From Bacteroides fragilis (lineage in GTDB: Bacteria; Bacteroidota; Bacteroidia; Bacteroidales; Bacteroidaceae): a stretch of DNA of 64,000 nt. The position numbers and the translations under genes are program-made. The notes below the pieces were generated by a model that was not told the DNA's origin, made no database searches, and saw nothing but the letters and a program-made list of their open reading frames with translations. The stretch lies in contig NZ_CP018937.1 in NCBI RefSeq assembly GCF_002849695.1, positions 62,001-126,000 of the forward strand, in the 5' to 3' direction. Below, piece after piece: positions 20,221 through 37,662 of this stretch (position 1 is the first letter of the stretch; the number at the start of each line of letters is the position of its first letter).

Positions 20221-23200
20221 ATGCAGGATTTCGTTCATTTACACGTCCATACGCAATATTCTCTTCTGGATGGCCAAGCCAGTGTCAGTGCGCTTGTCGA
20301 TAAGGCCATAAAGGATGGAATGAAAGGTATTGCCGTTACGGACCATGGAAACATGTTCGCCATCAAAGAGTTTACGAACTATGTGAATAAGAAAAACGGG
20401 GGTCCGAAAGGAGAAATCAAGGACCTGAAGAAACGGATTGCAGCCATTGAGGCCGGTGAAGTGGACTGTGCGGATAAAGAGGCTGAAATTGCTGATTGTA
20501 AAGCTAAAATAGTGGAGGCGGAGGGGCGGTTGTTCAAGCCCATTATCGGTTGCGAAATGTACGTGGCCCGCCGGACTATGGATAAAAAGGAAGGAAAACC
20601 CGATCAAAGCGGGTACCACCTGATTGTACTCGCCAAAAACGAGAAGGGGTATCATAACCTGATCAAATTGGTTTCACGTGCGTGGACCAAAGGCTATTAT
20701 ATGCGCCCCCGTACAGACAGGAATGAATTGGAGAAATATCATGAGGGCTTGATTATCTGTTCGGCATGTTTGGGTGGTGAAGTTCCCAAAAAGATAACTC
20801 AGGGATTGTTGGCGGAGGCAGAGGAAGCTATTCAATGGTATAAGAATCTGTTTGGGGACGATTATTATCTGGAAATGCAGCGTCATAAAGCAACGGTGCC
20901 GAAAGCTAATCATGAAGCATATCCATTGCAGGTGAATGTGAATAAGCATTTGATAGAATACGCCAAAAAGTATAATGTCAAGTTGATTTGTACAAATGAC
21001 GTTCATTTTGTCAACGAAGAGCATGCAGAAGCCCATGACCGGCTAATCTGTCTGAGTACGGGAAAAGACCTTGATGATCCCAACCGGATGTATTACACTA
21101 AGCAGGAATGGATGAAAACGAAAGCAGAGATGAACGAACTCTTTGCCGACGTGCCTGAAGCATTAAGTAATACTTTAGAAATTCTGGATAAGGTAGAATA
21201 TTATTCGATTGATCATGCACCGATTATGCCTACTTTTGCTATTCCGGAGGATTTCGGAACAGAAGAAGGGTATCGGCAAAAATATACGGAAAAGGATCTT
21301 TTTGATGAATTCACCCAAGACGAAAATGGCAACGTGGTGTTGAGTGAAGAAGCAGCTAAAGATAAAATAAAACGTTTGGGAGGATATGATAAACTGTATC
21401 GTATCAAGCTGGAGGCCGATTACCTGAAGAAGTTGACTTTCGACGGAGCCAAGAAGTTTTATGGCGATCCGTTGTCACCGGAAGTAAAGGAACGCTTGGT
21501 CTTTGAGTTACATATTATGAAGACGATGGGTTTTCCAGGCTACTTCCTCATTGTGCAGGACTTCATTGCTGCCGGACGTAATATGGGGGTATCCATTGGA
21601 CCGGGACGTGGTTCGGCTGCTGGGTCAGCCGTGGCCTATTGTTTGCAGATCACCAAAATAGACCCTATTAAATACGATTTGCTGTTTGAGCGTTTTCTGA
21701 ATCCCGACCGTATTTCATTGCCGGATATTGATATTGACTTCGATGACGATGGTCGTGGCGAAGTGCTTCGTTGGGTGACGGAGAAGTATGGGCAGGAGAA
21801 GGTAGCACATATCATTACATATGGTACTATGGCAACAAAGCTGGCTATCAAAGATGTTGCACGTGTACAAAAGCTTCCGCTTGCCGAATCGGATCGTTTG
21901 GCCAAACTGGTTCCTGATAAAATTCCTGATAAAAAACTGAACTTAAAGAATGCTATAGAATATGTGCCCGAATTGCAGGCTGCCGAAGCGTCACCTGATC
22001 CATTGGTAAGGGATACGATGAAATATGCCAAAATGCTTGAGGGAAACGTGCGGGGAACCGGTGTACATGCCTGTGGTACCATTATTTGCCGTGATGATAT
22101 TACGGACTGGGTGCCGGTCAGTACGGCAGATGATAAGGAGACCGGCGAGAAGATGCTGGTTACCCAATATGAAGGTTCGGTGATTGAAGATACCGGACTG
22201 ATTAAGATGGACTTTCTGGGGCTGAAGACTTTGTCTATTATCAAAGAAGCCGTCGAAAACATCCGTCTGAGTAAAGGCATGGAACTGGATATTGATTCTA
22301 TTTCAATTGAGGATCCTGCAACTTATAAACTTTATAGTGATGGACGGACTATCGGTACATTCCAGTTTGAATCTGCCGGTATGCAGAAATACTTACGTGA
22401 GTTGCAGCCATCTACATTTGAGGATCTGATCGCGATGAATGCCCTTTATCGTCCGGGTCCAATGGACTATATTCCTGACTTTATCGACCGTAAACATGGA
22501 CGTAAGCCTATTGAATATGACATTCCTGTCATGGAGAAATACCTGAAGGATACGTATGGAATTACGGTTTATCAGGAACAGGTCATGCTTCTGTCACGCC
22601 TTTTAGCCGATTTTACCCGTGGTGAGTCGGATGCCCTCCGTAAAGCGATGGGTAAGAAACTGCGTGATAAGCTGGATCACATGAAACCTAAGTTTGTTGA
22701 AGGTGGAAGGAAAAACGGCCATGATCCGAAGGTACTTGAGAAAATCTGGGCGGACTGGGAGAAGTTTGCTTCGTATGCGTTCAATAAATCACATGCTACC
22801 TGTTATTCCTGGGTTGCATACCAGACAGCATACCTGAAGGCTAACTATCCGGCTGAATATATGGCAGCTGTCATGAGCCGAAGTTTGTCGAATATTACTG
22901 ATATCACCAAACTGATGGACGAGTGCAAAGCAATGGGAGTGCAGACGCTTGGTCCGGATGTGAACGAAAGTAACCTGAAGTTTACGGCAAACCGGAATGG
23001 AAATATCCGCTTCGGGCTGGGGGCTGTAAAGGGAGTCGGTGAAGCTGCTGTGCAAAGCATCATGGAGGAACGAAGGGAAAATGGTCCTTTTAAAGGTATT
23101 TTCGACTTCGTTCAGCGTGTCAATTTGAATGCTTGTAATAAGAAGAACATGGAGTGTCTGGCTCTTGCGGGCGGATTCGATAGTTTTCCTGAGCTGAAAC

Positions 23201-24015
23201 GTGAACAGTATTTTGCGGTGAATGCCAAAGGCGAAACTTTTCTTGAAACATTGATGCGTTATGGTAACCGTTATCAGGCGGATAAAGCTGCTGCCGTTAA
23301 TTCATTATTCGGAGGAGACAATGTGATTGACATAGCGACTCCCGAAATTCTTCCGGCAGAACGTTGGAATGATTTGGAGAGGTTAAATAAAGAAAGAGAA
23401 TTGGTCGGTATCTACTTGTCGGCTCATCCGCTTGATGAATATGCCATTGTGTTGGAACATGTATGCAATACCCGTATGATCGAACTTGATGATAAAGCTG
23501 CTTTGGCAGGAAGAGAAATAACGATGGGAGGTATTGTTACCAGCGTGCGTCGAGGTATAAGTAAGAATGGTAATCCTTATGGCATAGCCAAAATAGAAGA
23601 TTACTCCGGTTCTGCCGAGATACCTTTCTTCGGAAACGATTGGGTTACTTTTCAAGGCTATTTAGGTGAAGGGACTTTTCTGTTTATCAAAGCTCGTTGC
23701 CAGCCTAAACAATGGCGTCCCGATGAACTTGATATTAAGATTACTTCGATGGAATTGCTGCCCGACGTCAAGGAACAACTGGTAGAGAAGATCACAATTC
23801 TGATTCCGCTTGCCGAACTTAATTCGAACTTGGTTACGGAACTTGCCACTTTGACGAAAGAGTCTCCGGGAAATACAGAACTTTATTTTAAGGTAACAGA
23901 TACGGATGGAAAGATGTATGTAGACTTGATTTCTCGTCCCGTTAAACTTTCGGTAGGTAGAGAATTAATTTCCTATTTAAAGGAACGTCCCGAACTTGCG
24001 TTTCATATAAATTGA
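20221..24015 (+). CDS. dnaE: DNA polymerase III alpha subunit
   Basis: 1264 aa from the ATG at 20221 (MQDFVHLHVHTQYSLLDG, the usual N-terminal PHP signature). In-frame ATGs at 20119 and 20194 exist; the first is upstream of the likely transcription start, the second remains possible. It is the replicative polymerase catalytic subunit. Domains: PHP (about 1-330), with LHVHTQYS and VTDHGNM; polymerase palm with PDIDIDFDDD holding the catalytic aspartates; GPGRGSAAGS; the fingers and tandem HhH region (GLGAVKGVGEAA); and a C-terminal OB-fold (about 1060-1140). Transcribed divergently from psd; trxA follows. Confidence 0.97.
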   Translation: MQDFVHLHVHTQYSLLDGQASVSALVDKAIKDGMKGIAVTDHGNMFAIKEFTNYVNKKNGGPKGEIKDLKKRIAAIEAGEVDCADKEAEIADCKAKIVEAEGRLFKPIIGCEMYVARRTMDKKEGKPDQSGYHLIVLAKNEKGYHNLIKLVSRAWTKGYYMRPRTDRNELEKYHEGLIICSACLGGEVPKKITQGLLAEAEEAIQWYKNLFGDDYYLEMQRHKATVPKANHEAYPLQVNVNKHLIEYAKKYNVKLICTNDVHFVNEEHAEAHDRLICLSTGKDLDDPNRMYYTKQEWMKTKAEMNELFADVPEALSNTLEILDKVEYYSIDHAPIMPTFAIPEDFGTEEGYRQKYTEKDLFDEFTQDENGNVVLSEEAAKDKIKRLGGYDKLYRIKLEADYLKKLTFDGAKKFYGDPLSPEVKERLVFELHIMKTMGFPGYFLIVQDFIAAGRNMGVSIGPGRGSAAGSAVAYCLQITKIDPIKYDLLFERFLNPDRISLPDIDIDFDDDGRGEVLRWVTEKYGQEKVAHIITYGTMATKLAIKDVARVQKLPLAESDRLAKLVPDKIPDKKLNLKNAIEYVPELQAAEASPDPLVRDTMKYAKMLEGNVRGTGVHACGTIICRDDITDWVPVSTADDKETGEKMLVTQYEGSVIEDTGLIKMDFLGLKTLSIIKEAVENIRLSKGMELDIDSISIEDPATYKLYSDGRTIGTFQFESAGMQKYLRELQPSTFEDLIAMNALYRPGPMDYIPDFIDRKHGRKPIEYDIPVMEKYLKDTYGITVYQEQVMLLSRLLADFTRGESDALRKAMGKKLRDKLDHMKPKFVEGGRKNGHDPKVLEKIWADWEKFASYAFNKSHATCYSWVAYQTAYLKANYPAEYMAAVMSRSLSNITDITKLMDECKAMGVQTLGPDVNESNLKFTANRNGNIRFGLGAVKGVGEAAVQSIMEERRENGPFKGIFDFVQRVNLNACNKKNMECLALAGGFDSFPELKREQYFAVNAKGETFLETLMRYGNRYQADKAAAVNSLFGGDNVIDIATPEILPAERWNDLERLNKERELVGIYLSAHPLDEYAIVLEHVCNTRMIELDDKAALAGREITMGGIVTSVRRGISKNGNPYGIAKIEDYSGSAEIPFFGNDWVTFQGYLGEGTFLFIKARCQPKQWRPDELDIKITSMELLPDVKEQLVEKITILIPLAELNSNLVTELATLTKESPGNTELYFKVTDTDGKMYVDLISRPVKLSVGRELISYLKERPELAFHIN

Positions 24016-24024
24016 TTATCTTTG
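23996..24024 (+). promoter_or_regulatory. Promoter of trxA inside the dnaE 3' end
   Basis: TTG at 23996-23998, an 18-bp spacer, and TATCTTTG at 24017-24024, overlapping the dnaE stop. Good consensus match; gives a leader of about 45 nt. Confidence 0.68.
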
Positions 24025-24074
24025 CCCCATAACAGTGATGGATACTTAATAACTAACAATTAATAATTAAAGAA

Positions 24075-24389
24075 ATGGCTTTAGAGATTACTGACAACAA
24101 CTTTAAGGAAATCCTTGCAAAAGGAACACCGGTTGTTATTGACTTTTGGGCTCCCTGGTGCGGGCCTTGTAAGATGGTAGGTCCTATCATCGACGAGTTA
24201 GCTAAAGAATATGAAGGAAGAGTGATTATGGGTAAGTGTGATGTAGATGAAAACTCTGATCTTCCTGCAGAATTCGGTATTCGTAACATTCCTACGGTTC
24301 TTTTCTTCAAAGACGGAGCATTAGTGGATAAACAAGTCGGTGCCGTAGCTAAACCTGCATTCGTAGAGAAAGTTGAGAAATTATTATAA
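24075..24389 (+). CDS. trxA: Thioredoxin
   Basis: 104 aa, ATG at 24075. A cytoplasmic dithiol reductase: one thioredoxin domain with DFWAPWCGPCK (active-site C29 and C32), the cis-Pro segment IPTVLFF, and a final helix AFVEKVEKLL. No signal peptide. Followed after 26 bp by a small acidic protein gene that probably shares its transcript and ends in a strong terminator. Confidence 0.97.
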   Translation: MALEITDNNFKEILAKGTPVVIDFWAPWCGPCKMVGPIIDELAKEYEGRVIMGKCDVDENSDLPAEFGIRNIPTVLFFKDGALVDKQVGAVAKPAFVEKVEKLL

Positions 24390-24415
24390 TATACTTTCAT
24401 TAAAAATATTTGTTT

Positions 24416-24751
24416 ATGGGACTGGAAGACGATTTTTTGTTAAGTGATGCCGATGATGAAAAGACCATCGAGTTCATCCGGAACTATTTGCCTCAGGAGT
24501 TGAAGGATAAATTCTCAGAAGACGAGTTATATTATTTCCTCGATCTGATCGATGAGTATTACTCTGAAAGCGGAATCCTTGATGCTCAGCCCGATGCTGA
24601 CGGTTATGTAGACATCGATCTGGAGCAGGTAGTGGAATATATCGTGCAAGAAGCCAAGAAAGATGAAGTGGGTGAATACGACCCGGAAGAAATCTTGTTT
24701 GTGGTGCAGGGAGAAATGGAATACGGAAATTCTCTGGGACAGGTGGAATAA
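24416..24751 (+). CDS. Small acidic protein of unknown function
   Basis: 111 aa from ATG at 24416; an upstream TTG at 24410 is less likely. Very acidic, with no membrane segment: LEDDFLLSDADDEKTIEFIR, DELYYFLDLIDEYY, DADGYVDIDLEQVVEYI. It is mostly helical by composition. I recognise it only as a conserved-looking Bacteroidetes protein; no function can be assigned. Cotranscription with trxA is likely (26-bp gap) and a terminator follows it. Confidence 0.8.
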   Translation: MGLEDDFLLSDADDEKTIEFIRNYLPQELKDKFSEDELYYFLDLIDEYYSESGILDAQPDADGYVDIDLEQVVEYIVQEAKKDEVGEYDPEEILFVVQGEMEYGNSLGQVE

Positions 24752-24777
24752 GCCAGTCTTCGTAAACCAAAAGATAA

Positions 24778-24811
24778 AGAGCGTGCAGAAACACTTCTGC
24801 ACGCTCTTTTG
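24778..24811 (+). terminator. Rho-independent terminator of trxA operon
   Basis: A 13-bp perfect stem (24778-24790 with 24795-24807, AGAGCGTGCAGAA) with a 4-nt loop, followed by TTTTGTTG. The gap from here to 24981 shows no gene. Confidence 0.9.
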
Positions 24812-24981
24812 TTGCATATATGTATGATAGTTTACTTTGTCTTGATTCCTCTCCTCCTGCTAAAAATACATTTTGTTTTTCGGCCCTCGGAAGTATCGGA
24901 TGTGTATAGGAGTCCGGATATCTGCCTGAAAATAGGATGAATAAAAGTCCGGCTTACTCTGTTTTTACGAAATAAGATCTA

Positions 24982-25713
24982 CTAAATTTCTTCTAACGCA
25001 TAGTATTGGTAGTCTCTTACAACGGTTTGAAGAAACTTTTCATCATTTACGTCTGTTTGGTCTACAGAAAGCAGTGCACGAACTTTGGGTGCCAGTTGTG
25101 AGATATGCCTTGCCCGGTCCTTATGATGCAGTTCTAACGCCTTACTGATCACATTTATTTGCTCCAAGGACAGATCGGCGGCTAATGGAAAACTGGGGTG
25201 ATATCCTTTGGTCAGATAATCGAACTCATCAAGGCTTACTTGTATTTTGCGGTAATTTTTCTCTTTAATTACCATTGTTCCTGCCGCAAGATCACCTAAA
25301 CGTTGGCTGTTTTTGGTTAATAGTATGACCAGTACCCCCAATCCTCCGGTAATAGTTACGTCTATCCCATAGAGCAACCACCTTAGCAGATATGCACTCA
25401 GGCTGGGTGTCGTACCGTCTGCTTTTACCACACGGATATTCATGACCTTTTTTCCGATACTTTGTCCTTGGTTAAAAACTTCGCAAAGTAACGAGTAACA
25501 TAGTACGGGCAGATAGATAAACAGGAACAACAAGAAAAAAGTACTTCCGGAAAAAGCGTGTATATTGAGTTTCCCCAATACATAAGAAGTGGCAAGAATG
25601 TAAATAAACAGCAGGAAATAATCGATGATACGAGCCAATATCCGTTCGCCAAGGCTGGCGGGTACTTGGCTGATGCGTACGAATTGTCCGGTGATAATAG
25701 TCGATTCTGCCAT
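24982..25713 (-). CDS. RDD family membrane protein
   Basis: 243 aa, ATG at 25713. The RDD domain spans about 18-145, with Arg-Asp signature RIIDYFLLFIY and three to four membrane helices, KKVMNIRVVKADG and LLRWLLYGIDV between them. The cytoplasmic C-terminal 100 residues are helical and charged. In Bacteroides the gene normally sits divergent from a SpoIIM-family gene at the head of the MoxR/DUF58 locus; that partner here is 12 kb away, at 37632. The first six codons are duplicated as a dead start at 37512-37530. This shows that the island between was inserted at the junction. Confidence 0.9.
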   Translation of the reverse strand: MAESTIITGQFVRISQVPASLGERILARIIDYFLLFIYILATSYVLGKLNIHAFSGSTFFLLFLFIYLPVLCYSLLCEVFNQGQSIGKKVMNIRVVKADGTTPSLSAYLLRWLLYGIDVTITGGLGVLVILLTKNSQRLGDLAAGTMVIKEKNYRKIQVSLDEFDYLTKGYHPSFPLAADLSLEQINVISKALELHHKDRARHISQLAPKVRALLSVDQTDVNDEKFLQTVVRDYQYYALEEI

Positions 25714-25850
25714 TTCTGATTAAACACATTTGGGTTCCGGTTGCAAATATATCATAATTCTCTTACTTTTGCTTCCGGTTTCGGACAAAACTTATCCGTA
25801 ACTAGAACCTGTTGGATAAAAGAGGTAACGCTTATAGGTCGTAATGTGGA
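25697..25850. repeat. Left copy of ~150-bp island-flanking repeat
   Basis: This matches 37513-37662 in the same orientation. The core from GGTTGCAAATATATC (25738) to TTATCCG (25798) is identical; flanking stretches are similar with scattered differences. The left copy holds the intact RDD start (25713) and a decayed start of the SpoIIM gene at 25816: ATAAAAGAGGTAACG, where the true gene has ATGAAAGAGGTAACG. Confidence 0.9.
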
Positions 25851-25858
25851 TTCTAATT

Positions 25859-26938
25859 TTATTTATCGGTTGAGTTAGTTACTATTTTATCCTTTAATGA
25901 AATCCCTTTTATCACTTCCACATAATTTCCATCTGAAATACCGATGTTGATGATTTGTTTTGTTTTCTGTTGTGTCATAGTATCCAGCAGATAGAGGTAT
26001 GTAGAGTCATTCTCGTATAAGACATATTTTTCATCAATGGATAAAGTGTGCTTTTTCTGTTTTATCACCATAGTAGCTGTTGCGGAATATCCCGATCTTA
26101 TAACAGGCATATTTTCCGAGACGGGAAATTCTGCCTCAAGCATGTATTTCATAATTCCGTTCTCCGCATTTCCTTTGGATGAAACTTTTGTTACTACTGC
26201 CCGGGTTTGTAAATTATCATAGGCATTGAATAAGAGTGAAATCGTGTCTTGTAAAGCGATATCTTTCAGATATTTTTCAGGGACAAGAGCTTTAAAACGA
26301 AACCGAGACATTTCCGCCACAACGGCAATCGTTGTTCCCGGATTAAAATTATTGCGCTCTATTACAGAGGCCCCCGTTTCCAGAGGGGTATCAATAATAA
26401 CGCCGCTAATACTCGATCTTACAATATTTGATGCCGTTTCAGGAGAGATACGCCCTTCTTTCAAGATGTTCAATTGATTTTGGGCAGAGGCGAGTTTCTC
26501 CTTAGATAATTCGTATGCCTGTGTGTAAGAGTCCATCTCTGCCTGTGCCACAAGGTTCTTTGAGTACAATTTTTGTTCCCGTTTATAATCTTCCAGTCGG
26601 GCTTTATACTCAATTTGGGCAGTGTTCAAGTTATATTCCAGTCGTTCCATATCCGATGCGTTTGGGACCAGCATGATGGAGGCGACAGGATCTCCTATGC
26701 ACACTTTATCTCCTATCGAAACATTAATCTTGTCCAGGACTCCCGATATCTGCGATTTTATTTCGATCTCCTTCATCGGAAAAACATTGCCGGATATGTT
26801 TATTTCCTCTTTGATCTCGCGATATTGTGGTTGTGTAGTTTCGTAAATTGCCTTTGTACCTCTTAGCGAAGAACGAAAAGCAACAAATGCCAGTGTGGAG
26901 GAAAAGATGCAAATCAATATAATCTTAAATGTCTTCAT
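25859..26938 (-). CDS. HlyD/MacA-type periplasmic adaptor
   Basis: 359 aa, ATG at 26938, sharing the A of TAATG with the upstream permease stop. An N-terminal anchor (FKIILICIFSSTLAFVA) is followed by a biotinyl-lipoyl-like half motif (ISGNVFPMKEIEIKSQISGVLDKINVSIG), a coiled-coil hairpin (about 100-165, NTAQIEYKARLEDYKREQ), the return half motif (SSISGVIIDTPLETGASV), and a beta-barrel and membrane-proximal domain. These adaptors bridge an inner-membrane ABC transporter and an outer-membrane channel. Last gene of the island operon, with the FtsX permease directly before it. In the peptide context it probably belongs to an export or self-protection transporter. No TolC homologue lies nearby. 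Confidence 0.88.
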   Translation of the reverse strand: MKTFKIILICIFSSTLAFVAFRSSLRGTKAIYETTQPQYREIKEEINISGNVFPMKEIEIKSQISGVLDKINVSIGDKVCIGDPVASIMLVPNASDMERLEYNLNTAQIEYKARLEDYKREQKLYSKNLVAQAEMDSYTQAYELSKEKLASAQNQLNILKEGRISPETASNIVRSSISGVIIDTPLETGASVIERNNFNPGTTIAVVAEMSRFRFKALVPEKYLKDIALQDTISLLFNAYDNLQTRAVVTKVSSKGNAENGIMKYMLEAEFPVSENMPVIRSGYSATATMVIKQKKHTLSIDEKYVLYENDSTYLYLLDTMTQQKTKQIINIGISDGNYVEVIKGISLKDKIVTNSTDK

Positions 26939-28179
26939 TATCCTATATTTTCGTTTCTAATAGCGTCAATGGGTTGTATAACAGATGCTTTCATTGCCGG
27001 AAATGCTCCGGCAATGACACCGGACAGAATCAAGACAACCAAAGCGAGAACAGCTACATTTATATCTATTTCTACATGCTTTATCATCGTTGCGTGACGG
27101 GCGCTTTCGAGCAACCAATTTATAATCTCAAGAATACCTGCACCTGATATCAATCCGATGATACCGGAAATCACAGTTATGATGACAGATTCCGTCAGCA
27201 TTAACACAAGAATGGATTTAGGGGTTGCCCCTACAGCCTTACGGATGCCTATTTCGCTACTCCTTTCTTTGATCACAACAAACATGATGTTGCTTACTCC
27301 AACAATACCACTTATCAGAAAACAAATTCCTACGATCCAGATGAACATCTTCAATCCATCAAAGAGCCCCTCAAAAGCAGACGTTTGTGTCTCAAAATTG
27401 ATTATCTGCAAAGCTTGCTTATCAGAATAAGCAAATTGGTATTTATTAGCGATGAAGGCTCTCAGCTCATTCTCAAATCGCTTGGAATCAACTTCTTTGT
27501 TCAGATATAAACAGAAAGCGCGCAATGGAGTCTTATTGTCAATGCAGTTTATGTAACTTGAAAAGGGCACATATACCGAATTGATTTCCGAAGCGCTGAA
27601 AATATCATCATTCTTTAGTACGCCTATCACCTTAAAATCAATACCGGCAATGTTGATCGACTTACCCAACGCTTTTTGATTATTAAATAAGGTCGTACTG
27701 ACATTTTCGCCGATAATGGCAACATTACGCGTATTCTCGTCATCTCCTTTATTAAAATATCGTCCATCTTCGTTGATTTTAAGTATCTTAATTCCCATAT
27801 AGTTTTCATTGATTCCTATAATCTTAAAAAGTCCGCTTTTAGCTTTATTCATCACTTGCGAATAAGACCCTGTTATTTCAGGAGAAATAGCTTTTATTCC
27901 CGGGAACTGTTTCTTCACGCGGTTAAGAAAATGCAAATCGAAATGCAACTGTTCCCCTTCTCTGATATTCTTATACTTCATAGAAGTGGTTCCTCCATAT
28001 ACATACATGCTTTTCTGGGCAAAAATGCTGAATATATCCATCACAGAGTTTTGAAATCCTTTTCCTGTACCCAATAGCACAACCAATATCAGGATTCCCC
28101 ACGAGATGCCGAATCCGGAAAGAAAGGTGCGGATCTTATTCTGCCTGATTGAAAGATAAATCTCGTATAGAACTTCCAT
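26938..28179 (-). CDS. MacB/FtsX-type ABC transporter permease
   Basis: 413 aa from the ATG at 28179, sharing bases with the upstream stop (TAATG); a TTG at 28212 is less likely. Layout: one N-terminal helix (LSGFGISWGILILVVLLG), a large periplasmic MacB-type domain (about 50-275), then three helices with the FtsX pattern, including SEIGIRKAVGATPKSIL. The family extrudes or transports peptides and lipoproteins across the inner membrane by mechanotransmission with a cognate ATPase. No ATPase domain is fused and none is encoded in the island, so a partner must come from elsewhere, or the system is incomplete. It is coupled to the HlyD-type adaptor gene. Confidence 0.9.
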   Translation of the reverse strand: MEVLYEIYLSIRQNKIRTFLSGFGISWGILILVVLLGTGKGFQNSVMDIFSIFAQKSMYVYGGTTSMKYKNIREGEQLHFDLHFLNRVKKQFPGIKAISPEITGSYSQVMNKAKSGLFKIIGINENYMGIKILKINEDGRYFNKGDDENTRNVAIIGENVSTTLFNNQKALGKSINIAGIDFKVIGVLKNDDIFSASEINSVYVPFSSYINCIDNKTPLRAFCLYLNKEVDSKRFENELRAFIANKYQFAYSDKQALQIINFETQTSAFEGLFDGLKMFIWIVGICFLISGIVGVSNIMFVVIKERSSEIGIRKAVGATPKSILVLMLTESVIITVISGIIGLISGAGILEIINWLLESARHATMIKHVEIDINVAVLALVVLILSGVIAGAFPAMKASVIQPIDAIRNENIG

Positions 28180-28745
28180 TATAGCAGAGTAAAGAGTTTC
28201 GTAATAGCCCAAACAGACAGAATGGGAATTACAACGGAGGCAATGGCATACCGCAGCCGTACCTTATATAAATGATGGATTAATATCATGCACAGCAAAT
28301 AATAGGGGATAAAAGAATAGTTAACCAACATTATGGGGAGACCAAGAGAATAATTATTTTGTAAGGTCGTTACCGCATTAGAAGTACTATATTCCATTTT
28401 CTGATTAAGAAGGAAGATGGAAATAAAAACAGAAATGGCAGGAATAATATAGAAATAAGACGAAATATATAAAAGATGTTTGAATGGAGCATAACCATTA
28501 AAGAGTATGGCTGTTAGGTGAAAGAGAAAAGTGGAGATAAGCCATATTACAATAGCTGACAAGACTATTATAATATAACTCATCCGTGCCAGAATTACAA
28601 ATAATCTATCAGTCTCTAAATTGTTATTATTCACAAGATGATTAGTAGTTATCAAAAATTCTGCGAGTAATAAACTATATAGTAATATAGTTAAAAAGCC
28701 ATACCATTTAGGCATCTTCTCAAGTGTATTGATTATCCTTTTCAT
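28179..28745 (-). CDS. YIP1-like five-helix membrane protein
   Basis: 188 aa, ATG at 28745. Five hydrophobic segments (about 17-33, 52-75, 86-108, 132-155, 166-186) and no long soluble domain. Spacing and the FNGYAPFKHLLYISSYFYIIP segment resemble the YIP1 family of integral membrane proteins. It overlaps the SpoIIM-type gene by ATGA and the permease by TAATG, so expression is tightly coupled. Function is unknown; a role in maturation, export or immunity of the upstream peptide is inferred only from context. Confidence 0.65.
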   Translation of the reverse strand: MKRIINTLEKMPKWYGFLTILLYSLLLAEFLITTNHLVNNNNLETDRLFVILARMSYIIIVLSAIVIWLISTFLFHLTAILFNGYAPFKHLLYISSYFYIIPAISVFISIFLLNQKMEYSTSNAVTTLQNNYSLGLPIMLVNYSFIPYYLLCMILIHHLYKVRLRYAIASVVIPILSVWAITKLFTLL

Positions 28746-29302
28746 GTTAACATATTTATTGATACATAAGTTTCGATGTAGGCAGCTGAAAGAATAATTA
28801 TGAAAATGATCAATAAATTGATGCCTATGTTCTTGTAAAATTTAAATGTAGGCATTTTATTTGTATACATAAACAAAATAATATTCCAAGCTATATAAAG
28901 TCCTATTCCTCCTGATATCCAAAAACCGATAAGTTCAAAGCTATGGGGCAAGGTTAAAGCGAAAATATCGGTTATACTCATGCCTAGTTTGTATGTTCGG
29001 CAACATACATCCGCAAAACAAAAAACATTTAATAACAAGTTAAAAAGTGTACCTATTCCTAATAACCCTCCTCCTAATACATTTAGGATGCAACCTTGCA
29101 TATTGTTTTTTAAAATGGTAATAAATGCACTGTGTTTATCTTTGTTATACAAAAAATATAAGGTTTTGTTGGCGGGACTATTGATTTCAAAAGTTGTCGT
29201 ATGACTTATTGCTATTTCAGAAATATCTATTACACACAGTCGTACTATGGCTGGTAACAACCAAAATAAAAAAGCAGCAATGAAAAAATATTTGTTAACC
29301 AT
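28742..29302 (-). CDS. SpoIIM/DUF95 family membrane protein (short form)
   Basis: 186 aa, ATG at 29302. Four to five membrane helices with the SpoIIM/DUF95 core: FITILKNNMQGCILNVLGGGLLG, then ALTLPHSFELIGFWISGGIGL, the conserved proline-histidine-glutamate helix. It lacks the longer N-terminal soluble domain of the resident 320-aa paralogue at 37632. DUF95 proteins are shared components of circular-bacteriocin clusters in Firmicutes, where they are needed for production. Here the gene lies two genes after a 97-aa secreted-type peptide, directly abutting its neighbours on both sides. It could be a maturation or export component. Confidence 0.8.
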   Translation of the reverse strand: MVNKYFFIAAFLFWLLPAIVRLCVIDISEIAISHTTTFEINSPANKTLYFLYNKDKHSAFITILKNNMQGCILNVLGGGLLGIGTLFNLLLNVFCFADVCCRTYKLGMSITDIFALTLPHSFELIGFWISGGIGLYIAWNIILFMYTNKMPTFKFYKNIGINLLIIFIIILSAAYIETYVSINMLT

Positions 29303-29854
29303 TTATGAACTCTTATTTAAATATTTGTTAATGTTGATTTGTATCGTTAAATGGGATTCACTACTTATATCTATAATTTGTTTATGTTTGCCGTTTTTCT
29401 GTTGAATGTGTAGAATACCATTTTTTTTATCAAAATTATAGCAATCAATGCTACTCCATTTTAAATCCCAGTGCATTATATAACGTATTCCTTTTTGATT
29501 TATTACCAAGATTTTTTGCATTAAGATAGAGGCTATTATTGATAATAATATAAGAATGGCAGATAACGGAAAATACTGTATTGGAATTACATATATTGAT
29601 AGAATGATAGAAATAGGACTCAGTGTATTTAATAGTATCTTATTCCTTTTAGTCGTTAAATTGATAATAGATCCTGATAAGTTATTCTTTTGTAAAATAT
29701 AAAATAAGGCTATTGTAATGATTCCAATAGTAAAGTAAAGACCTGTTAATTCCCATTTTATATGATCGGATATTGAAAGAGATAAAGTAATGATACAGGT
29801 TAGTAGAAGTAAAACTAAACAATATAATATTTTTTTTAATAAGAAATTATTCAT
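29303..29854 (-). CDS. Membrane protein with PH-like C-terminal domain
   Basis: 183 aa, ATG at 29854. Four hydrophobic segments in two hairpins (about 7-27, 34-54, 75-92, 95-112), then a 65-residue soluble tail with a beta-rich pattern: KGIRYIMHWDLKWSSIDCYNF, then GILHIQQKNG, ending in a helix. This resembles bacterial PH-like domains attached to membrane hairpins. The gene is very AT-rich. It is the first gene after the peptide gene and the 12-bp hairpin, and its stop abuts the next ATG. Function is unknown; immunity or maturation is a guess from position. Confidence 0.6.
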   Translation of the reverse strand: MNNFLLKKILYCLVLLLLTCIITLSLSISDHIKWELTGLYFTIGIITIALFYILQKNNLSGSIINLTTKRNKILLNTLSPISIILSIYVIPIQYFPLSAILILLSIIASILMQKILVINQKGIRYIMHWDLKWSSIDCYNFDKKNGILHIQQKNGKHKQIIDISSESHLTIQININKYLNKSS

Positions 29855-29874
29855 AATATTTTTATTTTATTTGT

Positions 29875-29910
29875 GAGGTTGCTTTGTATGAAATAGAGCA
29901 AAGCAACCTC
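29875..29910 (-). terminator. 12-bp hairpin between peptide gene and downstream export genes
   Basis: Arms 29875-29886 and 29899-29910 (GAGGTTGCTTTG and its complement) form a perfect 12-bp stem with a 12-nt loop, in the 74-bp gap after the 97-aa peptide stop. On the minus strand it is followed by an A-rich, not U-rich, stretch, so it is more likely a leaky terminator or mRNA-stabilising structure than a full stop. It would raise peptide output relative to the downstream genes. Confidence 0.6.
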
Positions 29911-29928
29911 TGTTAGTTAATTATTTTT

Positions 29929-30222
29929 TTATAATCCTGCTGCGGCGGCTCCTACTCCGGCTATCCAACCTGCCGGACACCAGCCTAGACCAACAGCACA
30001 AGTACCTAATGTTTCTGTTACTTTTCCCATTGCTAATGCTCCAACAGCTAACTTTCCTGATGCTTCAGGACCATATTCACCAGTTCCGGCAGCATAAGTC
30101 ATTGCAACAGTTGCTTCTTGTAAGTTATAATCACATTTATTTTCGTTGATTCCTCCCATTATACCCAAAGAGATAACAATAGCAACCAGCATTCCTAAAA
30201 CTGCTTTTTTATTTGTTTTCAT
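29929..30222 (-). CDS. Small Gly/Ala-rich secreted peptide, bacteriocin-like candidate
   Basis: 97 aa, ATG at 30222. A basic start (MKTNKKA) and a hydrophobic segment (LGMLVAIVISLGIMGG, 9-24) form a leader, which could be a signal peptide or end in a Gly-Gly site at 23-24. The remaining 73 residues are rich in Gly and Ala, with repeated small-xxx-small spacing (GKLAVGALAMGK), three cysteines (C30, C75, C82) and a hydrophobic end (WCPAGWIAGVGAAAAGL). Such composition fits membrane-active or circular bacteriocins; the net charge is slightly negative, as in some circular ones. It stands ahead of DUF95, YIP1-like, FtsX and HlyD genes. A signalling peptide for the divergent two-component system is the main alternative. 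No known family is recognised. Confidence 0.7.
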   Translation of the reverse strand: MKTNKKAVLGMLVAIVISLGIMGGINENKCDYNLQEATVAMTYAAGTGEYGPEASGKLAVGALAMGKVTETLGTCAVGLGWCPAGWIAGVGAAAAGL

Positions 30223-30353
30223 TTACTGTAAAGATTTAAATGTTTAAAACTCTTTTTTTGATTCTCGTGAAAACAGCCTATAACTTAATAGTCCCGTTTT
30301 CAGTTGCAATTTTTTCTATCCGTCCATATTCATATGATTTAAAGTTTGAACTT

Positions 30354-30557
30354 TTATTTCTTTTGGAGGAGTCGTAATAATGCTCCTATGCAAAAAGGAA
30401 TAAATATAATGATGCATATCCCTATTACAGCAGTATCTCCGTCTTGAGGTTTTTCTATAGGCCAAAGGTATCCTGATAAAAATAGGACAGTTACAATTTC
30501 TGTTGTTGCTCCTATAATTGTTGGCAACCATTTACGGTGTCTCTCATTCATAATCAT
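30354..30557 (-). CDS. 67-aa two-helix basic membrane peptide
   Basis: 67 aa from ATG at 30557, directly after the stop of the O-antigen-ligase-like gene; ATG at 30551 is possible. Basic ends (NERHRKW and LLRLLQKK) flank two hydrophobic helices (about 11-28 and 42-61). Size, charge and topology are those of bacteriocin immunity peptides, and it lies just before the 97-aa peptide gene. That role is an inference from form and place only; it may also be an unrelated small membrane protein. The 131 bp between it and the next gene contain no convincing promoter. Confidence 0.55.
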   Translation of the reverse strand: MIMNERHRKWLPTIIGATTEIVTVLFLSGYLWPIEKPQDGDTAVIGICIIIFIPFCIGALLRLLQKK

Positions 30558-32342
30558 CTATTTTTTGTTTTTATTACATACCTGTTTCAACAGTAGTCTC
30601 ATCTCTTCTTTTATCTCTTTCGCTGCCGTGGTTGGCACTTTCTCGTCGGTAGCTAATATTTTAGAAGCCCATTCTCCGGCGCTCCCGTAATCGCCTGCAG
30701 CTTCGTATAGTTTAGCCAACAAATACTTGGGGTATAACTTGGATGGCTGCATATAGACAGCTGTTGTATATGCATCGACGGCTTTAGCCGTATCTCCGTT
30801 TTCTCGGTATGCGTTTCCTAAGAGGATGAAACTGTTAGGGTTGGAACATTGGGCGCAGGAAACTGACAGCTCTTCAATCGCCTTTTGATATTCAGCCGAT
30901 AAGAAATAGGCTGATCCAAGATAAAAATGGAAGATGCCGTCGTTCCTGAGAATGCCTTGCGCCTTTTTATACATCTCTATACCTCCTTTCAGGTCATGGC
31001 GCATTACTCGTTGTTGTCCCCGATGAAAGAAATAGTATCCTCGCGCGTTTATCATGCCGGCAAGTGCGAATACGCAAATCAGGGGGCCTGCGAGGGATCT
31101 TACCCCGTTGCTTATCATGCGATGTGCGGTGGAAAGCAACCGCTTTTTTCCATAAAGAGCCACCGACAGGCAGAACATCAGATAAAGGGTGGTGGGGAGT
31201 ACCTTCAGAGGATAGGAACAGAACATCAATATGGTTATGGAAACGATGGATGCTTTGGCTCCGAGTTCAATGGTCGATAGGTTTTTCCAACCGGTGCCCA
31301 CTGCCATAACCAAAAGGGCCGCGATGCATGCTGTCACGATAATCCCTTGCTCAAGGCCAAGTTCAAGGAATTCGTTGTATGCGGTGGTTACATATCCCGC
31401 GATGTGACGTTCTTTCTCGGTACCTTCTTTTTCCCGGAAGTAGTCGGCTTGCCACTTTCCGTATTGAGATTCAAAATAACCGATTCCGTTTCCCCATAAC
31501 AAGTTCGCATGGGGATGAGGAGTGGATAGAGTTACTTTCCATACCAATATACGGCCCAAAGCGGAATCTTCTTTCATTTTGAATACAAAGAATCCGCTTG
31601 CGATGATTAAAACGGCTGACAGAATGATTGCCGGGGTCCGAATCGCTTTTTTACTCCAATAGTTGGTACCGCGTAGCAATCGGGCGTACCGGTAGCAAAG
31701 TACGCAAAGACAGCCTGCGCCACATGCGATCCATGCTCCGCGTGAGCGACTGAGTATTAACAGATAGCATACCAAGATAAAAAGCCCGCCCAAGATGTAG
31801 CAAATATTATCGAACCGTTTGTTTTTTCTATAAGATACTAATAGTGAAAGAATCAACGGGGCCGTCACCCCAAGATAACCGGCGTAGGCTCCCGGGTTGG
31901 CCATAGACCCGCCTATGATGAACTGCGGGTCGCTATTCTCCAATAGACCGATGGACTGGGCGATTCCAAAAACGGTCTCCACCGCGACGGTTGCTATGAC
32001 TACCCAGGCAAAGAAGCGTCTGTTTTTCCCGGGCAGGGACTGTGTGGCAAAAAAAGAGAAGAACAATGTCCATAGTACTGCCATCGTATATAAACGATAG
32101 GTCCCATATATATTTCCTGAGACATACCGTAAAAAAAGGCTTAGGACAATGCCGGAGACAATAAAACAGGCGCGGCTGTTTCTGCTCCAATCTTCTTTCA
32201 TCCCGCTCCATGTCGTTGCGAAAAAGACAAAAGAGCATATATAGAACAAAAAGAGCATTACCGGAAATCTGTTATTATCCAGGCCTGCATGTGGTAATAG
32301 GAATAATAGCGCAGCTGTTATTTTTAAGACTTTATTTTTCAT
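30558..32342 (-). CDS. O-antigen ligase-like membrane protein with TPR domain
   Basis: 594 aa, ATG at 32342. About twelve hydrophobic segments (to about 430) with the Wzy_C/WaaL core: LILSRSRGAWIACGAG and a large periplasmic loop holding GNGIGYFESQYG and HNEF-like AYNEFLELGLEQG. The C-terminal 150 residues are TPR-like (FHFYLGSAYFLSAEYQKAIEEL, SFILLGNAYRENGDTAKAVDAY). Ligases and polymerases of this family transfer glycans in the periplasm; in Bacteroidetes similar TPR-bearing forms accompany small secreted peptides, so it may modify a peptide or protein here. It overlaps the upstream gene by ATGA. Confidence 0.85.
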   Translation of the reverse strand: MKNKVLKITAALLFLLPHAGLDNNRFPVMLFLFYICSFVFFATTWSGMKEDWSRNSRACFIVSGIVLSLFLRYVSGNIYGTYRLYTMAVLWTLFFSFFATQSLPGKNRRFFAWVVIATVAVETVFGIAQSIGLLENSDPQFIIGGSMANPGAYAGYLGVTAPLILSLLVSYRKNKRFDNICYILGGLFILVCYLLILSRSRGAWIACGAGCLCVLCYRYARLLRGTNYWSKKAIRTPAIILSAVLIIASGFFVFKMKEDSALGRILVWKVTLSTPHPHANLLWGNGIGYFESQYGKWQADYFREKEGTEKERHIAGYVTTAYNEFLELGLEQGIIVTACIAALLVMAVGTGWKNLSTIELGAKASIVSITILMFCSYPLKVLPTTLYLMFCLSVALYGKKRLLSTAHRMISNGVRSLAGPLICVFALAGMINARGYYFFHRGQQRVMRHDLKGGIEMYKKAQGILRNDGIFHFYLGSAYFLSAEYQKAIEELSVSCAQCSNPNSFILLGNAYRENGDTAKAVDAYTTAVYMQPSKLYPKYLLAKLYEAAGDYGSAGEWASKILATDEKVPTTAAKEIKEEMRLLLKQVCNKNKK

Positions 32343-33052
32343 TGCCGATTTGTTTTACGTTTTGAGAAAAACGCGATGAGCAGATAGACAATTCCACCTA
32401 TACCCAAGGCATATAAGAAATGAGTGAATGAAAGCCCCTCTTTTTGCGGAGGGATGTATCTGTACTCTTGGTCCACTTTTATGCAGCCCGGATCGCTGAA
32501 CTCGCCAAGAAGTGAGTCTATCGGGAGAGCGTCATTTCCCTTTTGATAAAGCATCAGTGTGATGTATCCGAATTTCGATATATACAAAGACTGGCATCCT
32601 TTCAATAGTATGGAATCTCTCCGGATTGTGAGATAATTGTTTATCCGGTAGTTCGGGGCGGAGTTTACCGGAACGATGCTGTCAAGGCGTGTGAATATCG
32701 AATCGTTGTTCCACATATTCTTTGTCCGGTCATTCATCTCTTTCATGTCCGAAACGATCCGGTCGAAAGAATATGAATGGAGGGACTGCAAAACAGGCAT
32801 AAAACCAACCAAAGCATAATTTCCAGTAAAATATTCCTTTTGAGATATCGGATATAGCCCCATGTCGAGATCAAGCCGTGGAAATATCTTTTTGAGAGTG
32901 TCATGGGGAATGGTATCCCATCCGGAAGGGAGATCTATGCTATACTTACATCCTTTATGGGAAATGTCTACGCTTCGTGCGCATGTGTTCAGGGCATTAT
33001 ACAACATGCACGCCAAAATCATCGCTGTTATTTTTATCTTTGTCACCACCAT
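32339..33052 (-). CDS. Secreted membrane-anchored protein of unknown function
   Basis: 237 aa, ATG at 33052. A signal peptide (1-25) precedes a soluble domain of about 180 residues, opening CKYSIDLPSGWDTIPHDTL, then a C-terminal membrane helix (FLYALGIGGIVYLLIAFF, about 209-227) and a basic tail. The SIDLPSGWD start resembles lipoprotein-like domains that begin with a short amphipathic strand pair, but I do not recognise the family. It overlaps the transglutaminase-like gene by 10 bp and the ligase-like gene by 4 bp, so all three are one translational unit. Confidence 0.7.
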   Translation of the reverse strand: MVVTKIKITAMILACMLYNALNTCARSVDISHKGCKYSIDLPSGWDTIPHDTLKKIFPRLDLDMGLYPISQKEYFTGNYALVGFMPVLQSLHSYSFDRIVSDMKEMNDRTKNMWNNDSIFTRLDSIVPVNSAPNYRINNYLTIRRDSILLKGCQSLYISKFGYITLMLYQKGNDALPIDSLLGEFSDPGCIKVDQEYRYIPPQKEGLSFTHFLYALGIGGIVYLLIAFFSKRKTNRQ

Positions 33053-34512
33053 ATCTGTTCGTTATTCATATAAGTAAAAATGCGTTCTTCAACTCCTTTT
33101 TCAAAACAGCCGCCTGCCATTCTTGCGGCATAAACTGAGATATGCCCGTATTTAGGGTATTTGCGATATAAAGAAATGCTCCGGAGGGCGGAATGATCGG
33201 GAGTCAACTCATGTACATCTCCATTCTCCTTTAAAATAAAAGGTGTCGCGAAAGGAGCCATCACGCCGTTTCGCACGGATGCCGGAAAATAAACGATGCC
33301 CTTACCTTCATTTTGATATCCGGCGATCTTGTTGTCGCCGAACGGGATTCCCCGCGCTACGTTTCCGAAAGTTATTATCTTTTTATTCTCAGTTGCGGAA
33401 ACGGCTACGGGTATCCAATCTTTATTATTAAATATACATAAGAACAGCACGTCACCTTTCATGTCGGGATCCGAACCGGATAAGGCAATATCTGATACAG
33501 GCATCGGGTATTCTCCCGTGACGTCTTTCCAAAGGGGATCTAAGTAACCAATGCCGCCCTTATTGCTTGAATATCTGGTTCTGTAGATTTTAGGAATCTT
33601 ATATGAGATGCTGTTGTGTCCCTCTCCGTTAAATCCGACATCCACAAACCTCCCGTCTTTGTTCATCACCACGTTCCACGCATGTCCGCCGCTCCTGTTT
33701 GCCCATGCGGGTACCACATCGATGGTAGAAGGAATGCCAATGGCTCTGAGTGACAAGGTCAGATATGCGGTCAAGTGGTCACAACTTCCCCAATGTAACT
33801 GATCTAACTCACTGAAAGTCGGGAAAAAAGGGTATTTACTCATTCCGGCGTTATAGTAAATGCCGGATACCTGCACAATTGCTTTTGTCAATTCCAAAGG
33901 GTCGCTGATTGAATCCAACAGGTAAGAGAATTTTTGATAAGCCTGTTCCCTCCAATCACTCAGTGATTCGTTTCCAATACGATAGGGTAAAATATATTCG
34001 CAGAAATCATCGAAAGAGCACTCCGTAAACTTTTTAGTGCGATGCCAGACTTTGATCGCTTCTTCTACATTGTTGATCAGGAAGTTGCCGGTTATAACTT
34101 CGATGTCTCTTACTATTTTGGGGCGCGGAGGGTCAGTACATGTTTTATATACGGAATCCAATGCCATCCCTAATCGAGACTTGCCGGGATCCCACGCTTC
34201 TTTTTCTTTAATGTGATTATTTAAGATAATGGAATGAAAAGGATCTTGTTCATTGGCTGGAATGAGGCTGTATTTATCTGCCATATTCCCAACCAAAAAG
34301 AATATGGATCTGATCTTCAAAGAGTCTTTCTGATTAATGAAAAAATCCGGAGCTTTCTCTATCTCTTCTCTGTTTTTATGAGATAACTTGAGAACTTCGT
34401 GAATCTTATCTGGGTATCTGCTGTTGTTCGGTTGTATACAACCGGACAAGACAAGAGTATTTAAAAGGAATGATACCCATATAGGAGACTTTATACATCG
34501 TGATTTTTTCAT
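33043..34512 (-). CDS. Transglutaminase-like lipoprotein
   Basis: 489 aa, ATG at 34512. A lipoprotein signal ends at C25 (VLSGC). The transglutaminase-like core holds a Cys-His-Asp set: C244 in HWGSCDHLTAY, H277 in GGHAWNVV and D291 in FVDVGF. The N-terminal 200 residues are helical, the C-terminal 170 beta-rich (VLFLCIFNNKDWIPVAVS). Such enzymes cut or cross-link peptides, or act as proteases, in the periplasm or on the surface. It is the first gene of the island's leftward series, with a TACCTTTG promoter element 29-36 bp upstream. A role in processing the island's peptide is inference. Confidence 0.85.
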   Translation of the reverse strand: MKKSRCIKSPIWVSFLLNTLVLSGCIQPNNSRYPDKIHEVLKLSHKNREEIEKAPDFFINQKDSLKIRSIFFLVGNMADKYSLIPANEQDPFHSIILNNHIKEKEAWDPGKSRLGMALDSVYKTCTDPPRPKIVRDIEVITGNFLINNVEEAIKVWHRTKKFTECSFDDFCEYILPYRIGNESLSDWREQAYQKFSYLLDSISDPLELTKAIVQVSGIYYNAGMSKYPFFPTFSELDQLHWGSCDHLTAYLTLSLRAIGIPSTIDVVPAWANRSGGHAWNVVMNKDGRFVDVGFNGEGHNSISYKIPKIYRTRYSSNKGGIGYLDPLWKDVTGEYPMPVSDIALSGSDPDMKGDVLFLCIFNNKDWIPVAVSATENKKIITFGNVARGIPFGDNKIAGYQNEGKGIVYFPASVRNGVMAPFATPFILKENGDVHELTPDHSALRSISLYRKYPKYGHISVYAARMAGGCFEKGVEERIFTYMNNEQIWW

Positions 34513-34548: not shown

Positions 34549-34830
34549 GTGTGGGGCTTTCAAATGTTTTATAATCAATACCTAATATTTTTATAATCAA
34601 ATCCATGTCTTTTGGTTATATGGATAAATTTTATCACGAGTACGCAGAGGGAAAGGGTTGTGCAAATAGATTTGTTTATTTGCGTTTTTGCATGAAAAGG
34701 ATATTTTTATCTCTCTTTTAATAACGCGATCTTTTTCGAAATCTTCCTAATAGAGGAGTAAAATACATAAATAGGGTATTTGTATGCGAATTTTCTTACC
34801 TTTTCGGTTAAATATTCCGGTTTTATCATC

Positions 34831-34935
34831 AAAACATTAACTTCTTTTCCCGAAAGAAGTTAATGTTTTCTGCATAAGAAGTTAGTCTTTTGTCTGTAAG
34901 AAGTTAATGTTTTATCCGTAGGAAGTTAATTTCGT
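34831..34935. repeat. Hairpin plus serial AGAAGTTAATGTTTT repeats
   Basis: Arms 34831-34847 and 34853-34869 form a 17-bp perfect hairpin with a 5-nt loop. The right-arm word AAGAAGTTAATGTTTT then recurs, degenerate, at about 34877 and 34899 and in truncated form at 34920. Spacing is about 22 bp. The block lies in the 900-bp gap between the divergent leftward operon and the kinase gene. The rest of that gap (34936-35340) shows no gene. Confidence 0.7.
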
Positions 34936-35353
34936 AAAAGGGAGAGATGAAAATGGTGTTTTTTGAAGCTACTTGGAATTTCGAAATGGATATTGCTGAT
35001 GTAACTTTCCGACAGAGAGATGGAACTTATTTAAATAAAATGTCTGCAGAATGTGCTTTTATTTATTCATAGTGGCCGAAATAAGGTGGAATGGTTTGCT
35101 TTTTGATTTAGACTAACGGTGAAATACAGGCTTCTTTTGTATCTTTCGTCATTGTGGACGGAAATAGACATATACAGCCTCCTTTTAAAATACAAAGTGC
35201 CAGTATGGAATGCAACTGTCAGAATGTAAGATTTCCCTTTGGGGATGGCTTGTCATCTTGCTTTTAGAGAGGCGTAAAATGAAACAACATTCTTAAATAA
35301 CCTTCAAACAGGTATTGGACAAGACTTAAAAACGGCCTTAAAATTACGAATTC

Positions 35354-37476: not shown

Positions 37477-37512
37477 GCAGAGTTAATCTGATTTCTTCTA
37501 AAGTGTGACAAT

Positions 37513-37662
37513 CATAGTCGATTCTGCCATTTCTGGTTAAACATTTTTTAGTTTCGGTTGCAAATATATCATAATTCTCTTACTTTTGCTTCCGGTTTCG
37601 GACAAAACTTATCCGGAATTCAACGAGTTAAATGAAAGAGGTAACGTTTATACGTCGGAACA
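37513..37662. repeat. Right copy of ~150-bp island-flanking repeat
   Basis: Counterpart of 25697-25850. It holds the intact SpoIIM start (37632) and, on the minus strand, a dead RDD start: ATG at 37530 followed by codons for MAEST, after which the frame leaves the RDD sequence and stops within ten codons. The identical core runs 37557-37615. Confidence 0.9.

Follow-up and report, generated by a model that had tools for sequence, protein, structure and literature searches.

Within a 64,000-nucleotide stretch of Bacteroides fragilis DNA (NZ_CP018937.1, positions 62,001 to 126,000 of the forward strand; hereafter the window), we analysed a locus of ten tightly packed leftward genes (34512-25859) centred on a 97-aa leader-bearing peptide. 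We propose that this locus is an exchangeable operon for the production of a single bacteriocin-like peptide, secreted, hydrophobic and membrane-active, and for the protection of its producer, a reading to which we assign a probability of about 0.55. Comparison with related genomes indicates that these genes form a genuine conserved unit, which likely makes a secreted peptide, the balance tips somewhat towards this peptide being antibacterial, and the peptide is unlikely to be a ring. The locus reads as a hybrid, in which export and self-protection of the circular-bacteriocin type are joined to peptide maturation of a Bacteroidales type.

Firstly, we established the gene content of the locus by searching its proteins against Pfam and NCBIfam. 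Seven open reading frames (ORFs) reported in the initial annotation at 25859-30557 were all confirmed on the minus strand, with the same coordinates and sizes, and form the distal part of the run. Three upstream genes (30558-34512), whose ends touch or overlap, continue it, and judged by spacing the ten genes read as one operon. The 97-aa precursor (29929-30222), described earlier as a leader-bearing Gly/Ala-rich peptide, indeed consists of a hydrophobic N-terminal leader and a Gly/Ala-rich core, and the 67-aa protein encoded just upstream (30354-30557) is basic and hydrophobic as stated (isoelectric point (pI) 8.8, grand average of hydropathy (GRAVY) 0.65), making it a candidate immunity protein. 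Downstream of the precursor gene lie those for a 183-aa membrane protein whose C-terminal part is possibly a beta domain (29303-29854), a short SpoIIM/DUF95 protein of 186 aa (28742-29302), a Yip1/YknW-like membrane protein of 188 aa (28179-28745), a 424-aa MacB-type ABC permease without an ATP-binding domain (26938-28212; start codon TTG at 28212, with an ATG at 28179) and a 359-aa periplasmic adaptor of the MacA/HlyD type (25859-26938). The earlier SpoIIM, FtsX/MacB and HlyD labels rest on firm matches (PF01944 5.8e-15; MacB_PCD 4.6e-27 and FtsX 3.4e-16; HlyD_D23 4.1e-9, with RND_mfp at 1e-35 in NCBIfam). The YIP1-like label survives as a weak resemblance, the Pfam match (0.051) lying under the cut-off and the YknW_fam match (9.6e-5) reaching 22 bits against the 110 required, and the PH-like label of the 183-aa protein is unconfirmed (DUF5673 0.066, VPS13_C 0.058, and a low-confidence structure model with a predicted local distance difference test score (pLDDT) of 61). 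The three upstream genes encode a Wzy_C (O-antigen-ligase-like)/TPR membrane protein (30558-32342, Wzy_C 2.9e-12 in Pfam), a protein with a hydrophobic segment at each end and no significant Pfam or NCBIfam match (p237, 32339-33052), and a transglutaminase-like lipoprotein (33043-34512, Transglut_core 0.0011, under the cut-off). The initial annotation had overlooked these three genes, including the transglutaminase-like and Wzy_C/TPR proteins, as well as three features described below: the two-component system, the repeats on either side and the missing ATPase gene.

Secondly, we showed that the same genes stand together, rearranged yet still co-directional, in a sister Bacteroides (locus L008) and in another Bacteroidales family (loci L063 and L104). 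L063 was found by scanning 393 Bacteroidales genomes with PF01944 (genome G778) and L104, a 9.6-kb contig of genome G902, by scanning 120 genomes of the family of G778 with a Wzy_C/TPR alignment. Nine of the ten window genes have a counterpart in all four clusters, namely those for the leader peptide, the small basic protein, SpoIIM, the Yip1-like protein, the MacB-type permease, the adaptor, p237, the transglutaminase-like lipoprotein and the Wzy_C/TPR protein; the tenth, for the 183-aa protein, has a counterpart in two frames in L063 and no match in L104. Co-occurrence of peptide, small basic protein and SpoIIM, suggested earlier as a check, was thus observed in 4/4 clusters, together with the MacB-type transport genes. 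Identities to L063 and L104 are 42% and 39% for the adaptor, 42% for the permease in both, 38% for SpoIIM in both, 31% for the Yip1-like protein in both, 34% and 33% for the Wzy_C/TPR protein and 26-29% for p237. The gene order differs among the three independent clusters: L063 carries on one strand the transglutaminase-like lipoprotein, permease, adaptor, p237, Wzy_C/TPR protein, a 106-aa peptide, basic ORFs of 78 and 84 aa, SpoIIM, Yip1, the PH-like gene in two frames, a split TolC-type gene and an ABC ATPase, and L104 carries the permease, adaptor, a p236, Wzy_C/TPR protein, a 102-aa peptide, a 78-aa basic ORF, SpoIIM, Yip1 and the transglutaminase-like gene. The two ends of the L104 contig (1-149 and 9483-9631) overlap exactly over 149 bp inside an ORF; the contig may be circular or part of a tandem array, or the overlap may come from flanking repeats or from the assembly.

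The gene set is rare in the genomes sampled. PF01944 matched 60 of the 393 Bacteroidales genomes, and the short frames were those of the window (186 aa), of G778 (201 aa) and of G772 (137 aa, partial). The window SpoIIM sequence matched its own genome alone among 100 relatives, one locus (L008) among genome contigs, and five of 392 genomes at E 0.001, the other four matches being long frames of 321-358 aa; a profile of the short proteins matched 1/325 genomes and no viral contig. Hence, across these overlapping samples of 100, 392 and 325 genomes, the short SpoIIM appears otherwise absent. The permease is a poor marker, as 68/392 genomes match it at 1e-50 and the best foreign matches lie in ordinary paired-permease operons. 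That it had lost a fused ATPase was considered and dropped, separate permeases being usual in these operons.

Thirdly, we compared the precursors. Those of the window, L063 and L104 (97, 106 and 102 aa) begin alike, with MKT(N/D)KKAxLG, and the window leader is 47-49% identical to the other two over 36 aa (E 6-7e-8). C-terminal to the leader they diverge into a Gly/Ala-rich hydrophobic part; counted from residue 46, a guessed cleavage place, the cores comprise 52, 61 and 57 residues with net charges of -1, -3 and 0 and GRAVY of 0.63-0.93. Between the window and L008, the peptide gene shows 8 synonymous and 3 non-synonymous differences, the latter at the start codon and at residues 8 and 21 of the leader, and the core is identical. 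The leader is therefore kept and the core changed between families, and the core is unchanged between the two Bacteroides. A stem-loop follows the peptide gene in 4/4 clusters, three of them independent sequences. In the window, it has a 12-bp stem (29870-29912, minus strand) and folds at -18.3 kcal/mol, versus -3.8 (sd 2.1) for mononucleotide shuffles of the gap 29855-29931, and L008 is about the same; by the same kind of shuffle, the values are -26.8 versus -12.4 (3.0) in L063 and -65.8 versus -46.4 (4.6) in the 328-base gap of L104. The precursor had no match in plasmids or viral contigs, and at E <=0.01 it matched 2 of 100 relatives, the window's own genome included; the match in genome G019 (33 residues, 39%, E 0.0026, with an internal stop) was taken as chance. 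The structure model of the peptide is poor (pLDDT 52). Counterparts of the 67-aa protein are 73 aa long in L008, 78 and 84 aa in L063 and 78 aa in L104, with pI of 9.9-10.5; those of L063 and L104 are matched by size, charge and place, sequence homology not being detected.

Fourthly, we examined the transport genes. SpoIIM has been called class-defining for circular bacteriocins (PMC13289728, PMC6131525), whose published clusters unite a precursor, a DUF95 protein, an ATP-binding protein, a small immunity protein, YIP1 and an ABC pump (PMC8534725, PMC6131525). Deleting the DUF95 gene of leucocyclicin Q leaves the mature circular peptide inside the cells (PMC6131525, PMC7132975), which fits an export role for SpoIIM here; in addition, a small cationic hydrophobic immunity protein is a part of such clusters (PMC6131525), and protection against peptide toxins is reported for both YknWXYZ and the pump of AS-48 (PMC4887032, PMC5985334). 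Searched against plasmids (tblastn, E <=10), the L104 SpoIIM matched two records: Priestia megaterium NZ_CP059459.1 (E 6e-3), where the annotation of the surrounding cluster lists four genes of the circularin A/uberolysin family, YIP1, ATPases and an adaptor, and Methanomethylovorans hollandica (E 4e-4), where YIP1, ABC genes and a pair of 66-aa hydrophobic ORFs adjoin the match. Both matches sit in circular-bacteriocin-type clusters, annotated as such in Priestia and unannotated in the archaeon. When a few proteins were compared, the window SpoIIM matched that of the methanogen directly (3.3e-9), and a three-member SpoIIM profile gave 49.0 bits for the methanogen and 39.0 for Priestia, versus 5.4-36.3 for 11 long Bacteroidota SpoIIM. 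In a tree, the short SpoIIM proteins join the plasmid ones (split 99/98, with a long-branch warning). Cluster profiles for SpoIIM, Yip1 (3e-8 to the YIP1 of pMETHO01) and the permease match the methanogen plasmid cluster, and those for SpoIIM and the adaptor match the Priestia cluster. The methanogen stretch (pMETHO01, NC_019972.1 86020-100421, L123) holds SpoIIM, YIP1, a MacB-type permease, an ATPase and a near-identical pair of hydrophobic 66-aa ORFs, and is possibly an archaeal circular-bacteriocin-like cluster. Separately, the genome of the window carries a 1.3-kb copy of 26690-27980, 97.4% identical (G000:C1:2975979-2977269, L057:9979-11269), which spans the permease end and the adaptor start; the region has RND efflux and transfer-type genes and an ORF that by eye resembles a ribosomal-protection protein.

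Fifthly, the Wzy_C/TPR and transglutaminase-like genes stand near the peptide as they do in NVEALA-type loci, which ties the locus to a separate, Bacteroidales kind of peptide locus. Cys244 and His277 of the transglutaminase-like lipoprotein are invariant in 7/7 aligned sequences, and the L063 counterpart matches Transglut_core at 1.6e-6. The window protein is 168 aa shorter than that of L008, 504 bp being missing in frame near the 3' end (33043-33100); by eye, the missing part resembles a discoidin-type domain. The Wzy_C/TPR family is common, with matches in 31/100 relatives and, at 1e-20, in 22/120 genomes of the G778 family. We fetched 16 such places, mostly the tops of the lists, and profiled the 15 besides L104 at 1e-5, some of them being cut by contig ends. 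A transglutaminase-like lipoprotein was present in 10/15, signal peptidase I and an RND exporter each in 9/15, and SpoIIM, the Yip1-like protein, p237 and this permease in 0/15. A leader-type small ORF, chosen by pattern and by eye, was found in 10/15; in Pfam, the ORFs tested from 3 of these 10 passed the NVEALA cut-off, and one from a fourth fell below it. The window locus has neither signal peptidase I nor an RND exporter, 25859-34512 being taken by other families and the rest by the two-component system, and the precursors of the window, L063 and L104 do not match PF14055 (NVEALA). Six of the fetched loci (L105, L106, L107, L108, L114 and L115) have small ORFs with hydrophobic leaders near the Wzy_C/TPR genes, several with Cys-rich tails and without a Pfam NVEALA match, perhaps representing unnamed precursor families. 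The genome of the window also has a second Wzy_C/TPR locus, L109 (G000:C1:2649000-2665000), which is an ordinary one that includes a signal peptidase and an RND exporter.

We then analysed the boundaries of the block. It is bracketed by direct repeats of ~150 bp (25694-25844 and 37511-37660, plus strand), identical at 132/151 positions (87%), which consist of the first codons of an RDD gene and the intergenic DNA upstream of it. Five other genomes (L022-L026) show the empty site, with RDD beside a long SpoIIM gene and a single repeat copy, while the genome of L008 carries the island between both copies and genome G014 (L021) carries, between both copies, a relic resembling 34629-35247 (75.6%). 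In 500-bp steps, the window and L008 are 86.0-92.2% identical over the flank 20738-25737 and 94.6-99.8% over the island, except for 86.8% at 30238-30737, which contains the small basic ORF. Synonymous divergence (dS) is 0.49 in RDD, the flank used for this comparison, and 0-0.21 in the ten island genes. The higher identity and lower dS of the island imply that it recombined between species more recently than the RDD gene diverged. The stretch 28179-29854 is nearly unchanged (dS <0.01), forming a mosaic with the divergent small ORF. No recombinase gene was seen among the ORFs and family matches of the island, and island DNA had no match in plasmids or phages.

The island also carries a two-component system, a histidine kinase (35413-36765, HATPase_c 5.1e-24) and an OmpR-type response regulator (36769-37476, Response_reg 2.4e-23, Trans_reg_C 1.5e-9), both on the plus strand and divergent to the operon; PADLOC gave kinase and regulator matches alone. 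Between them and the operon lie four GAAGTTA repeats 22 bp apart (34831-34928, plus strand) with an inverted copy, which are probable response-regulator sites; similar repeats occur in L008, and the spaced pair was absent from 50 mononucleotide shuffles of the window. An invertible promoter at this place, suggested by inverted repeats, was set aside, the stretch looking more like phased operator repeats.

Drawn mostly from protein families and gene order, the mechanism we propose is as follows. The hydrophobic leader would direct the precursor into the inner membrane via Sec, and its removal would yield a core of ~50-60 residues, which the Cys/His transglutaminase-like lipoprotein and the Wzy_C/TPR membrane protein would mature on the periplasmic side. 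Together with an ATPase and a TolC-type channel whose genes lie elsewhere, SpoIIM, the Yip1-like protein, the permease and the adaptor would lift the peptide from the inner membrane and expel it, an act that would serve export and self-protection alike, aided by the small basic protein. The adjacent two-component system would switch the operon through the phased repeats.

Several results weigh against this proposal. The precursor matches nothing in Pfam up to E 1 and NprX_fam alone in NCBIfam (0.42), its predicted core is neutral to acidic rather than cationic, and homology of its leader to NVEALA-type leaders was not supported (profile comparison probability of 27% over 17 columns, not significant). 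Of all island genes, the small basic ORF has diverged most, being 57% identical to its L008 counterpart (non-synonymous divergence 0.25 and dS 0.21 over the gapped alignment); it thus differs at 43% of positions despite an identical peptide core, which is unusual for a dedicated immunity protein. The genome has 52 PF00005 matches (three of them under the cut-off), all outside the island, which therefore lacks an ABC ATPase gene, whose presence is a criterion for circular-bacteriocin clusters (PMC8534725); the ATPase is possibly supplied in trans. The window copy has no TolC gene and the L104 contig has neither an ATPase nor a TolC gene; in favour of the proposal, the L063 run includes an ABC ATPase gene and a TolC-type gene, the latter broken. 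Searched against plasmids, the window SpoIIM gave no match, and the Priestia SpoIIM outscores the best long SpoIIM by little (39.0 versus 36.3 bits). Finally, the window and L008 are close relatives, leaving three independent clusters, of which the L063 copy is partly broken; its TolC-type gene is interrupted by an insertion-sequence-like ORF trio (L063:3182-7509) and the copy looks partly decayed.

The initial annotation had inferred an analogue of the Firmicutes circular-bacteriocin systems. That claim is partly supported: the co-occurrence in 4/4 clusters and the location of both plasmid matches of the L104 SpoIIM in such clusters favour it, and the precursor without a model, the neutral to acidic core and the missing ATPase gene speak against it. 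A bolder form of our proposal, with the odds well against it, would make the peptide a Gram-negative relative of circular bacteriocins, for which the transglutaminase-like lipoprotein and the O-antigen-ligase-like membrane enzyme, acting outside the inner membrane, would close the ring or form another cross-link; the same pair would mature the many leader peptides of Bacteroidales loci of the NVEALA kind. We consider it improbable that a true circular bacteriocin, a pore-forming killer closed head to tail, has moved into Bacteroidales: SpoIIM, Yip1, the MacB-type pump and the small basic protein are as in the cerecyclin and AS-48 clusters (PMC8534725, PMC5985334), and the size and hydrophobicity of the core fit, but the precursor fits no such model, the window lacks the ATPase gene, and a 596-aa protein of the Priestia cluster is not matched by the Wzy_C or transglutaminase-like profiles at E <1. 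The charge of the core also speaks against it, though neutral circular bacteriocins exist (subgroup ii; PMC8659200).

Unlikely too is an exported NVEALA-like peptide with a signalling or surface role, not antibacterial, for which SpoIIM and the pump would simply be the exporter. The Wzy_C/TPR and transglutaminase-like genes shared with NVEALA-like loci and the adjoining histidine kinase favour it, but the 0/15 count for SpoIIM, the Yip1-like protein, p237 and the permease does not, nor do a small basic protein and a pump of self-protection type, or a hydrophobic core unlike the Cys-rich cores of such loci. Very unlikely is a detoxification pump like YknWXYZ or BceAB, directed with its sensor kinase against foreign peptides and having the 97-aa ORF as an accessory: the YknW-like protein, adaptor and permease do lie beside a two-component system with phased repeats, but the peptide is present in 4/4 clusters and conserved under purifying change, no kinase or regulator match was found in the L063 and L104 DNA fetched, and the run holds maturation-type genes and no ATPase gene. 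Lastly, that unrelated membrane genes are neighbours by chance is scarcely credible, for although several of the families are individually common in Bacteroidales, the synteny of nine co-directional genes in two families and three gene orders contradicts it, and the synonymous excess in the peptide gene together with recurrence in two distant Bacteroidales genomes argues for more than chance.

Among the open papers retrieved from PubMed Central, none was recognised as describing this gene set. Few Bacteroidales bacteriocins are known, and a survey covering 1,136 Bacteroidales genomes (PMC10352776) described class I bacteriocins as elusive; its text uses none of the terms SpoIIM, DUF95, circular, O-antigen ligase, transglutaminase or NVEALA. 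If borne out, a peptide cluster linked to SpoIIM in Bacteroidales would bring the gene set of circular bacteriocins into a Gram-negative phylum unreported in the available text of the PMC8534725 survey, and a common, unexplained Bacteroidales gene pair, Wzy_C/TPR and transglutaminase-like lipoprotein, would gain a testable role in peptide maturation.

Set beside known systems, the locus shares with the circular-bacteriocin clusters (AS-48, cerecyclin, Priestia) a short SpoIIM, a small basic hydrophobic protein, Yip1, MacB-type pump parts with an adaptor, and a small hydrophobic peptide. It differs from them in its precursor family, its longer hydrophobic leader, a Cys in the core and the absence of net positive charge, in lacking an ATPase gene, in having the transglutaminase-like, Wzy_C/TPR and p237 genes, and in its Gram-negative host. 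With the Bacteroidales Wzy_C/TPR leader-peptide loci, some of them PF14055 (NVEALA) loci, it has in common the Wzy_C/TPR protein, the transglutaminase-like lipoprotein and a short leader peptide, but these loci often carry signal peptidase I and an RND exporter, and the window precursor has no PF14055 match. The YknWXYZ pump of Bacillus (SDP toxin) likewise combines a Yip1-like protein, an adaptor and a MacB-type permease, whereas the window lacks the ATPase gene and links these parts to a precursor, SpoIIM and putative maturation genes. The pMETHO01 cluster is archaeal, has its own ATPase gene, is not annotated as a bacteriocin cluster and, in the stretch fetched, gave no transglutaminase-like or Wzy_C/TPR match at E <0.01; like the window, it joins SpoIIM, YIP1 and a MacB-type permease, and it carries its two near-equal 66-aa hydrophobic ORFs beside them.

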